Origin: Acidobacteriota bacterium
GTDB lineage: Bacteria > Acidobacteriota > Vicinamibacteria > Vicinamibacterales > UBA2999
Direction of reading: 5' to 3'
Length of the DNA stretch: 64,000 nucleotides
Assembly: GCA_947482665.1 (NCBI GenBank)
Contig: CANKJK010000014.1
Coordinates: 1 to 64,000, forward strand
Shown: positions 17,031 through 20,677 of the stretch, one piece after another
Layout: every line of letters begins with the position of its first letter
Position numbering within the stretch: the stretch's first letter is position 1
Program-made: the position numbers and the translations under genes
The notes under the pieces: generated by a model
What the model was told of the DNA's origin: nothing
The model's input: only the letters and a program-made list of their open reading frames with translations
The model's database searches: none

Positions 17031-17600
17031 GTGACCAAGAACAGGCTCGAAGCGTTCAGCGACGGCGTCATCGCCATCCTCATCACGATCATGGTGCTGG
17101 AGCTCAAGGTGCCGGATGACCCGTCCCTGCAGGGCCTGCGCGCCGTCGCACCAACTCTGGTCACCTACGCACTCAGCTACCTCTACCTGGGCATCTACTG
17201 GAACAACCACCACCACCTGATTCACGCGGCGGAGCACATTAATGGCGCCGTGCTCTGGGCAAACCTGTTTCTGCTCTTCTGGCTGTCATTGATCCCCTTC
17301 GCCACGCACTGGATGGGCCACTCCAGCTTCGCGCCAGGCCCGACGGCCCTCTACGGCGTGATCCTGCTCCTGGCCGCCGGCAGCTTCAAGCTGCTCGTGA
17401 TCAGTCTGCTCCGGATCCGGAGCAACACGCGGCTGGCGCAAGCACTCGGCACCGACCGCAAGGGCAACGTTTCGGTGGTCGTCTATGTCCTCGCCACCGT
17501 GATTGCGCGTAGCCACCAGACAACGGCCCTCTTCCTGTATGCGGCGGTTGCGGCGATGTGGCTCGTGCCAGACCGCCGCATCGAACGGCGCGCGGCCTAG
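17031..17600 (+). CDS. TMEM175-like (DUF1211) potassium channel family protein
   Basis: 189 residues, six predicted TM helices. It starts with the family hallmark [20 protein letters not shown] (R-x3-FSDG), then [32 protein letters not shown] and [14 protein letters not shown]. Bacterial TMEM175 proteins are tetrameric leak K+ channels with hydrophobic filters. The GTG at 17031 gives the usual short N-terminus; a GTG at 17025 is also possible, and the Shine-Dalgarno is weak. The TAG stop is formed at the junction with the palindromic element that follows. Confidence 0.9.
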
Positions 17601-17761
17601 CAGCCCGTGGTGCAAGTCCCACTGCATTCGACGAACGATGCATCCCCGCTGGCTGCGTGGCTCTTCCGTCAAATACTCCCGGTATTCTCGGTCATCGCGC
17701 CTTGCCATCGGGGCGCCTCGTCCGTCTCGGTGCAACGCGGGACTTGCACCACGGGCTGCTA
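17598..17761. repeat. 164-bp palindromic MITE-like element
   Basis: Terminal arms 17598-17620 and 17739-17761 are a perfect 23-bp inverted repeat beginning TAGCAGCCCGTGG. The interior is an imperfect continuation of the palindrome, with an apical near-repeat (CAAATAC...GTATTC). Omitting the outer TA on each side leaves 21-bp arms flanked by TA, as for IS630/mariner-type MITEs. No ORF is inside. It fills the gap between two convergent genes, and its ends supply both TAG stop codons. Alternatively it is a bidirectional terminator. Only one copy is seen here. Confidence 0.6.
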
Positions 17762-20677
17762 GAAGCGGACGCCCAGCGCCAACCGGACAGCGCGAGCGCC
17801 GTTCTGTCCGGGATACGGCTGCGGGAACTGGTTGTCGGCGGTCGCCTGGCCAAACCGGGCGCCGCGGATGAAACCCGTCGGAATGCCATTGGCATCCAGA
17901 GTGCTGGCGCGATCCACGGTCACCGTCCGGTCCCATGCGATCTGCTTCTGGTTGTTGAAGAGGTTGTACACCTCCAGCTTGACCCACGGCCGCAGGCGGG
18001 CAGCGACGGGAAACGTGTACGTCGTTGCCAGGTCCATCACGCCGTAGCCCTTGAAGGTCTCGACGCCGCGCGTGCCGAAGTACACGGTCTGACGGACGCC
18101 AGGACTGATGTCGTTGGCGGGATAGCCGGGGTTGCGCGCCAGCATCGCAGCCGGCGTGGCGAGTGTCGCCATCAGGCTGTAGGCCGTGCCAGAATTGACG
18201 CGCCAGATCGGCGCGACATCAATCACGCCGAGGCGGTGTGACGTCGCGCTCCAGGTACCCCAGACCCGGAGCTTGTGGCGCTGAAACTGGTCCAGGCGAC
18301 CGAATGGCGCAAGCCGGTCCAGGGCCGGACCCAGGATTTCAGGGAAGTCTCCAAAGGGCGAGGCCGTGCCAGGCTGCCCCGCGGCCTCACCGACAAACGA
18401 CGCGTGATTGCGAATCTGGAGCGTGTACGTGCCGGCGACCGTCGCATGATGGCCGGCGCGCGCCTGACCTTCGAAGATCGCCGCGCGGTAGATCCGGGAG
18501 GGCGCATCGGTGTTCGTGATCAGGCGATTGGTCACCGTGCCCACAAAGGGGATAGTGGTCGTGCCGTTGGCGAGACTGATCACGTCGTCGACGAAGTGCG
18601 TGGTGGACCGGTCCACGTAGGTACCGCGCACGCGCAGTGAGCCGCCGATGCGGTGTGCACCGCCGATCGTGAACTCCCGCACCACGGGCGAGCGCAGACC
18701 GTCTGCCACACGTACGTTGGCCGTGGGTACGTTCGCGAAGACGACCTGGGTGTAGTTCGCTGGATCCAGACCCGGCGCGAAATCGAGGCCCTGCCCGGCA
18801 GGTCCGGCATAGACGTAGTCGATTTCACTGGGGCGACCGACACTCGTGTTCTGGGAGAACTGGTTCTGCGTGTACTTGCCGGCATAGGTTCCGGCCGTGA
18901 CAGACAGGACGGTCTCGCCGTCACCGGAGAGATCCAGCGCAGCAGCCAGTCTCGGCGACGCCGTCGTCGAATCCACGGTCAGGATTCCGCCAGTGGCCGT
19001 GCCCCGAACAAACTCCAGACGCACGCCGGCATCCACGGTGAGGCGCGGCGCCGCGATCCAGCGGTCCTGTGCGTAGAGTGACGCCGTTCGGATATCAACC
19101 TGGGCGCCACGCGTGGCCGTGAACTGCCAGGCTTCGGACACGCCCGGCGTAAAGACCGGAATCACGCGGCGTGCGGAATCCAGCGCCGGCACGCCGGCGC
19201 GCGCCAGGTAGTCCGTGACGAACACCCGTCCGGTGGGCGACTGCGAATTGCCACCGATCCCGGTCGTCACGAAATGCTCTCCGCCGACGCGCAGGTCGTG
19301 AGTCCCCCAGCGGCCGGCCGAGGCGAGCGCGGAGAGCGCACCTGTCAGCTGGTGGTTGTTCCGCGACTCCGGGTCGAGGGCGTCCAGGTAGGGAGCGCTA
19401 TAGAAGAACCCGCCAGGGACGCCGGCAAGGGCGCCCTGCGTCTGGAACGGCGAGTTGGCGAGCGCCGTGCCGGCGCCGCCGTTGCCGACGAACCGCTGCC
19501 GCTTCGTGGACCACTGCACGGTCGCGAAGAGGCGCGACGAGAGCGGCGCGCTGTAGCCCGCCACGAACAGCCGGTTCGGCAGCCGCCGCGTGATCAGCGC
19601 GCCCGCATCCAGGAGACGCGTGGCACCGACCGCCGCCGTGTTCGCCTGCTCGGTCCCGTCCCCGATGAACGACACCCGCGCCGTATCGGCCGCGCGGAGC
19701 CGCCCCGTCAGCGTGAGCTCTCCCCGCTGGTTGCGGTCTGTCCGCGTGAAGGCGCCGCCTGTTTGGGCGAAGGTCTGTGGGGTCTCGCTGTGTTCCAGCC
19801 GGCCAGCGGTAAAGAACCACAGGCGGTCTGTCCGCAGCGGCCCGCCGAAGGTGCCCTCGTGTACGTAGCCGAGGACGTCGCGATGCGCGATGCCCGCCGT
19901 GCGTTCCCGTGGGGTCTCCCCGATCCACGACGGGTTGGAGAGGTTCTCGCGGACGCTTCCGCTGAAGCGGTTGCCCCCACTCTTGGTGACGACGTTGATC
20001 ACGCCCCCGGTAAAGCGGCCCAGGCTGGCCGGCGCGCCATGCACCACCACACTGGTCTCCTCGACCGCGTCCTCGATGAAGAGCGTCGTCGAAGTCCCGA
20101 ACAGGTTGTCGTTCACATCCACGCCGTTGACGAGGAAGACGTTGTCGTAGCCAAACGCGCCCCCGATCGCGAGCTGACCCGCATTGACCGTATTCGTCGT
20201 CAGCCCTGGGACCAGCTCCGCGATGTCCACCGGCCGGCGGCTCACGGGCAACAGGTCGACGAGCTTCTTGCCCACGGTCTGCCCGACCGCGCCGGTCCCC
20301 GCGGCCGGCCCGGCGGAGGACGTCACCTCAATGTGCGCCTCGGCCGTCACGGCCAGTTCAACGTCGAGGCGCACCGTCGTCGAGGCGTGCACGACCGCGT
20401 GCCGCTCGACCGGCGGCCGTCCCGAGGTCGCAATGGTGACGGCGTAGTCACCAGGCGGCAGCGACCGGAGCACGAACACGCCGTGCTCGTCGGTCGCGGT
20501 CTCACGCATGCCCTGGAGCGAGGGCGAGTGCACCGTGAGCGTCGCTCCGGATACCGCTGCGCCGGAGGCCACACGGATGCGGCCGGTCAGGGTCCCGGTC
20601 GCGGCAGTCTGGGCGCCCACGGGCAGCGCACGCACCCACAGGGCACACACGAGTATCAGCACGGGCAGTCTGGCCAT
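17759..20677 (-). CDS. TonB-dependent receptor-like protein with carboxypeptidase-regulatory domain
   Basis: 972 residues. Signal peptide (MARLPVLILVCALWVRALPV, cut near GAQ), a carboxypeptidase D regulatory-like domain (about 25-105: GTLTGRIRVASGAAVSGATL), a plug (about 130-240: VFLVNGVDVNDNLFG, GGVINVVTKSGGNRFSGSV) and a barrel to a terminal Phe (LALGVRF), as in outer-membrane proteins. This is the Oar-like TonB family common in Acidobacteria; the ligand is unknown. AGGAG lies 6 bases before the ATG at 20677 and fixes the start over an ATG at 20683. The divergent amidohydrolase suggests a peptide- or amide-related substrate, which is inference. Confidence 0.93.
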   Translation of the reverse strand: MARLPVLILVCALWVRALPVGAQTAATGTLTGRIRVASGAAVSGATLTVHSPSLQGMRETATDEHGVFVLRSLPPGDYAVTIATSGRPPVERHAVVHASTTVRLDVELAVTAEAHIEVTSSAGPAAGTGAVGQTVGKKLVDLLPVSRRPVDIAELVPGLTTNTVNAGQLAIGGAFGYDNVFLVNGVDVNDNLFGTSTTLFIEDAVEETSVVVHGAPASLGRFTGGVINVVTKSGGNRFSGSVRENLSNPSWIGETPRERTAGIAHRDVLGYVHEGTFGGPLRTDRLWFFTAGRLEHSETPQTFAQTGGAFTRTDRNQRGELTLTGRLRAADTARVSFIGDGTEQANTAAVGATRLLDAGALITRRLPNRLFVAGYSAPLSSRLFATVQWSTKRQRFVGNGGAGTALANSPFQTQGALAGVPGGFFYSAPYLDALDPESRNNHQLTGALSALASAGRWGTHDLRVGGEHFVTTGIGGNSQSPTGRVFVTDYLARAGVPALDSARRVIPVFTPGVSEAWQFTATRGAQVDIRTASLYAQDRWIAAPRLTVDAGVRLEFVRGTATGGILTVDSTTASPRLAAALDLSGDGETVLSVTAGTYAGKYTQNQFSQNTSVGRPSEIDYVYAGPAGQGLDFAPGLDPANYTQVVFANVPTANVRVADGLRSPVVREFTIGGAHRIGGSLRVRGTYVDRSTTHFVDDVISLANGTTTIPFVGTVTNRLITNTDAPSRIYRAAIFEGQARAGHHATVAGTYTLQIRNHASFVGEAAGQPGTASPFGDFPEILGPALDRLAPFGRLDQFQRHKLRVWGTWSATSHRLGVIDVAPIWRVNSGTAYSLMATLATPAAMLARNPGYPANDISPGVRQTVYFGTRGVETFKGYGVMDLATTYTFPVAARLRPWVKLEVYNLFNNQKQIAWDRTVTVDRASTLDANGIPTGFIRGARFGQATADNQFPQPYPGQNGARAVRLALGVRF

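Follow-up and report, generated by a model that had tools for sequence, protein, structure and literature searches.

The window, by which we mean the whole stretch of 64,000 nucleotides that was analysed, contains two convergent genes whose ends are separated by a long palindrome. The gene on the forward strand encodes a TMEM175-like protein (Pfam TMEM175, E 1.1e-30), and its TAG stop lies at 17598–17600. The gene on the reverse strand encodes a receptor with a CarboxypepD_reg domain and an outer-membrane beta-barrel domain; its TAG stop lies at 17759–17761, and the protein ends in ...LGVRF*, with Phe as the last residue. The ORF ends (17600 and 17759) and the Pfam domains bear out the preliminary description of this DNA, according to which the palindrome begins and ends at the stops of these two genes and the receptor still ends in Phe.

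The arms of the palindrome (17597–17620 and 17739–17762) are 24 bp long and 100% complementary, with 118 nt between them. A perfect terminal repeat of 23 bp enclosing 118 bp had been described; the perfection and the enclosed length were reproduced, and the repeat is one base pair longer because the outer C/G had been omitted. Both outer ends carry CTAG. When folded as RNA, the 164-nt palindrome gave −100.4 kcal/mol versus a shuffle mean of −58 (sd 3.97; z −10.68), a value reached in 0 of 200 shuffles. Nothing resembling a terminator with a T run was found in 17450–17900, which argues against an ordinary terminator.

If the duplication is TA, the boundaries obtained by comparing copies place the element proper at 17600–17759, with no strand assigned, and the element with both TA copies at 17598–17761. 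Its 160 bp are too short to encode a transposase. The left terminal inverted repeat, of end type A (GCAGCCCGTGGTGCAAGTCCC), lies at 17600–17620 on the forward strand and the right one at 17739–17759 on the reverse strand; the hairpin core lies at 17655–17704 on the forward strand, a position counted from the 59–166 match of a copy at a contig end. The stop of the TMEM175-like gene would thus consist of one TA target copy (17598–17599) and the first base of the element, G (17600), a split for which the mechanism is taken from an empty site elsewhere. The receptor stop would consist of the terminal base of the element and the other TA copy (17760–17761).

Dispersed copies, empty sites and transposases

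The palindrome is a mobile repeat and not a fixed terminator. A search of the same genome and its relatives, suggested in the preliminary description, returned five near-identical copies in the genome itself (contigs C14, C21, C6 and C1 and a contig-end copy on C12; 97–99% identity), four of them full-length with agreement at 161–165 of 166 bases. The same genome holds a further copy on C19 (83% identity), two core-only matches and two end remnants of 17–20 bases. The flanks of five of its copies had nothing in common when compared at E 1e-3. Relatives of the element were present in 32 of 59 genomes, and a single copy conserved at one orthologous position, the outcome that had been said to favour a bidirectional terminator, was not found.

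To look for empty sites, we joined the flanks of six copies in genome G057 and sought them in G048, G059 and G061. Five of the six queries aligned across the junction in G048 (283/300, 270/300, 269/300, 265/301 and 246/303 identities), and thus mark empty sites in a sister genome; for the sixth, one flank only was found. In the diagnostic pair, an empty CTAC stands against a filled CTAG...CTAC, which indicates that TA is duplicated and that G and C are brought by the element itself. This is the one site that discriminates cleanly, and it is where the outer TA was seen to be the target duplication that had been proposed. Three other empty sites in G048 do not discriminate (CCAG, CTGG and a small gap at the junction). 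At the empty counterpart of the copy L068, the gene already has its ...SLRP* ending with TAG, so that codon and protein are the same with and without the element. A copy at the stop of pyrG (...SLAG*) has relatives without the element in which the native C-termini are SLAG* or SLAK*, and its site in G048 retains a 10-base remnant of the element. The search for empty sites therefore succeeded for the G057 insertions, with TA resolved at one; no empty orthologue of the window locus itself was found.

Full-length matches fetched from among the matches listed gave 84 tabulated copies, of which 29 have CTAG on both sides. Eight carry other matched 4-mers on both sides (TTAG three times, CTGG twice, TTGA, CTAA and ATAG; L003, L004, L006, L013, L048, L052, L091 and L092), as though the duplication were of 4 bp, a pattern that plain TA duplication does not predict.

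Genome G024, of the window's order, has an IS630-family transposase gene that is intact (364 aa scanned; NF033545 E 3e-77, DDE_3 E 8.6e-25) and is flanked by the ends CTAGTCCCCTGGA; MITEs in G040 and G017 have the same type of end. IS630 elements in G024 and G013 share their type-B ends with MITEs, the ends of IS630-type elements in G082 (CTAGTGGCRCGAAAT) match those of the MITEs in that genome, and G074 has an IS630 fragment with the same end as its own MITEs. Among the loci listed, TAG-tipped inverted ends occur at a further 17 DDE_3 loci of the order. By their matching ends, putative cognate IS630-family transposases were thus found for three sister families. The preliminary description had called for an IS630-like transposase with the same terminal repeats; the sister families (G024/G013, G082 and G074) provide it, and for the window's own type A none was found. 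The type-A end (CTAGCAGCCCGTGGTG) was at none of the DDE_3 loci scanned, and G000 had no DDE_3 match. A scan of 162 genomes of the order with the type-A pattern gave one match in each of 11, none convincing, and a reversed control also matched a few. An IS5-type (DUF4096) partner was considered and dropped: PF13340 matched in only 2 of 10 genomes, and the trail in G074 led to the IS630 fragment beside a broken IS5-type piece. At that locus (L330, contig C43 of G074), a truncated DUF4096 gene lies directly against an IS630-type transposase gene that is also truncated.

Insertion at stop codons

Landing on stop codons is a general habit of the element family, which the preliminary description did not include. 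Gene calls came from a home-made dicodon model, itself trained on these loci, and cover 79 of the 84 copies (five were left out for short flanks). At least one gene ends exactly in the target of 35 of the 79 copies, and both genes do so in 4; the target coincides with no gene stop in 39, and a called gene spans the copy in 5. When a converging gene end reaches a copy, it stops in the target TAG in 39 of 44 cases (binomial p 3.8e-14 versus 1/3), and the inferred target was already TAG or TAA for 37 of these 39 genes. In the window's own genome, the copies with both flanks number five (window, C21, C6, C1 and C19); the target TAG is the stop of at least one gene at each of them and of both genes at three, and the two end remnants also lie at a gene's stop. 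The orientation of copies at stops shows no bias (16 versus 15), and a host RNA function read from such a bias was rejected. Outside the window's order, the converging gene ends at 32 bounded elements, called by a longest-ORF criterion, fall in the target in 8 cases, run into the element in 9 and stop before it in 5. This split suggests that the stop bias there is weaker and less well tested.

Origin of the element and competing explanations

The palindrome is very probably a non-autonomous MITE of the IS630 type that depends for its movement on an IS630-family transposase acting in trans and preferring TA within CTAG, with the stop rebuilt at each end. The preliminary description had proposed an IS630/mariner-type MITE, and this identification stands on the multiple copies, the empty sites, one TA duplication, the preference for CTAG and the IS630 transposases of sister families with the same ends. 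It had also proposed a landing between two genes without harm to either, and both genes do keep a TAG stop; the harmless landing on stops is confirmed save for two links, the empty site of the window locus and the type-A transposase.

Under this mechanism, the IS630-family transposase would target TA within CTAG, and IS630 is said to prefer CTAG, going by the title of a 1991 paper by Tenzen and Ohtsubo. CTAG is scarce in the GC-rich host genome and frequently falls at stop codons. Because the element starts with G and ends with C, insertion into TA would always rebuild a TAG that reads inwards, from either side. At the window locus, the insertion most likely hit one CTAG that served both convergent genes as an overlapping stop, so that both would have kept their stop and their last residue. 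The type-A transposase is one that we infer, and the conserved hairpin core would have been retained in each element while the ends changed.

A fixed bidirectional terminator, or an mRNA-protecting hairpin common to the two genes, would account for a very stable hairpin on both strands that is placed at gene ends. The dispersed near-identical copies and the empty sites largely refute this explanation, the palindrome has no T run, many copies have no converging gene, and the orientation at stops is unbiased; we therefore consider it extremely improbable, although a side effect of the palindrome on transcripts could still be real. Another kind of mobile hairpin, either of the REP/REPIN type moved by a Y1 (RAYT) enzyme or IS5-like with a 4-bp YTAR duplication, would also be palindromic with a TAG tip, and could explain the matched non-CTAG 4-mers in 8 of the 84 listed copies. 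Such an origin is unlikely to a high degree, because the CTAC empty site is compatible with TA only and the cognate ends sit on IS630-family transposases, and the IS5-like variant in particular is faced with the scarcity of PF13340 in the genomes searched.

A further alternative leaves the IS630-type MITE and its mover in place and concerns the stops alone: their use as targets may be a by-product of the rarity of CTAG outside stops and of purifying selection, with no extra targeting. We lean towards this explanation. CTAG is avoided in the window (18 observed versus 47 expected, about 2.6-fold depleted), which means that the stop bias may follow from target preference and selection; of the 16 window CTAG sites beyond the element, 7 are stop codons, and CTAG makes up 57 of the 315 stops called in the loci. 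On the other hand, copies with CTAG on both sides lie at stops in 20 of 27 cases versus 34 of 117 control CTAGs (27/101 in flanks, 7/16 in the window), and double stops occur in 4 of 27 versus 0 of 117. Post-insertion selection could still yield both of these differences, and against the window's own CTAGs alone (7/16) the stop bias has p 0.059.

Among known systems, YPAL/RU-2 of Yersinia resembles the window element in size and palindromic folding, and it sits just after stop codons. As defined in the available part of one source, it is a palindrome of about 168 bp with internal inverted repeats, without terminal TA and with duplications of 3–26 bp, and the window element differs in having terminal TA and a TA duplication (PMC2229807). 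RUP of Streptococcus pneumoniae (107 bp) is, like the window element, a small non-autonomous repeat with IS630-like ends, in its case those of IS630-Spn1, and a TA target; it differs in having stops in all six frames and in inserting into IS elements, and the same part of that source makes no mention of a core of this kind (PMC2229807). Correia/NEMIS and ERIC are likewise palindromic MITE-like repeats, with sequences different from that of the window element and, in this partial text, no mention of landing on stop codons (PMC2229807). The IS630 family, with ISY100, shares the TA duplication, as far as the accessible text of the source goes (PMC2170065), but is autonomous, whereas the window element has no transposase.

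A hairpin core shared across phyla

Across the order, a central part of about 85 bp is common to copies whose ends differ widely. At its heart lies a core of about 50 nt, designed as 5'-GCGTTG Y TC n TC nn TC, stem-loop, TC nn TC n TC n CGCCTTG, in which mirrored TC/TC mismatches appear as tandem G.A on the other strand. The window core reads GCGTGGCTC versus the cross-phylum consensus GCGTTGYTC, and this difference of one base causes the strict pattern to miss it. The n positions covary and form Watson-Crick pairs in 66, 62 and 52 of 70 distinct cores versus shuffle means of 28, 33 and 23 (0 of 2000 shuffles each; the shuffles ignore relatedness, so these are counts and not probabilities). 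With the partners slid to other positions, pairing occurred in 25–42 of 72 cores. The middle TC/TC mismatch, which the search pattern does not force save for one C, is conserved in 64 of 70 cores and replaced by CC/GG in two. Template switching could also maintain the likeness of the palindrome arms, but it cannot account for the conserved TC/TC mismatches. As RNA, the G.A strand gives the better fold in 66 of 73 cases; the wobble asymmetry (20 versus 13) was judged too weak to indicate a functional strand.

The spread of the core over phyla is the new part of the finding, absent from the preliminary description. A pattern derived from the shared central part matched at least 113 stretches across a set of bacterial and archaeal genomes. 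The 80 matches listed, with lineages taken from record titles and most of them metagenome-assembled, comprise 26 from Acidobacteria, 21 from Gammaproteobacteria, 12 from Verrucomicrobia, 8 from Bacteroidota, 4 from Elusimicrobia, 3 from Myxococcota, 3 from unspecified or delta proteobacteria, 2 from Sphingomonas and 1 from Omnitrophota. Sphingomonas, Stutzerimonas and Alloalcanivorax are isolates by title among the hosts listed. The strict pattern is present in 13 of 396 Acidobacteria genomes, all 13 of the window's order. Copy numbers of up to 23 were seen in one genome, and the reversed pattern gave zero matches in 10 and in 396 genomes. In Pseudomonadota, Bacteroidota, Verrucomicrobiota, Myxococcota, Elusimicrobia, Omnitrophota and Acidobacteria, the core sits between arms that are specific to the lineage and unrelated to one another, and CTAG tips are frequent in these elements (both sides in 17 of 32 with settable ends). 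Viral contigs had no match to the core pattern, plasmids none to the window element and E. coli genomes none to the gammaproteobacterial element, which gave weak partial matches in 4 plasmid records.

Some elements depart from the common form. Five are composites with an apparent second, inverted core-like hairpin beside the first (L296, L305 and L319 in Thiodiazotropha; L292 and L309 in Elusimicrobia). The tips of L293, L303 and L310 (Myxococcales, G079) are TGAGTACAG...TACTGAG or near to it, not CTAG, possibly reflecting landing on TGA stops. Elements of about 60–65 bp in G074 (L341, L342, L343 and L345) have the same ends and CTAG tips without the core, and two of them are identical in different places. 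These short elements suggest that the core may not be strictly needed for movement, and they weaken the idea of the core as a movement requirement.

With Rfam 15, the window gave nothing above the gathering score (a sub-threshold MIR918 only), and the cores in 18 loci were likewise unmatched. On an Elusimicrobia contig, a 2dG-II riboswitch match (77 bits) lies near a core element (L199, 4109–4180). In the limited scope of open-licence literature covered, we found no description of the core. Tentatively, and with a confidence that stops a little short of even, we propose that the core is a functional folded nucleic-acid module, a helix in which three tandem G.A pairs are spaced by one and two base pairs. 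It may be read as a single strand or as RNA by a widely conserved cellular factor, and may have spread through several phyla on IS630-type MITEs that swap their ends according to the IS630 transposase available.

The stop-codon habit would show that a selfish element need do almost no harm: a transposase that seeks CTAG, together with an element that begins with G, would re-create the stop that is hit, on both strands. Across phyla, a structured core that persists while the ends of its carriers change may in turn offer a way into what non-autonomous elements need besides transposase ends.
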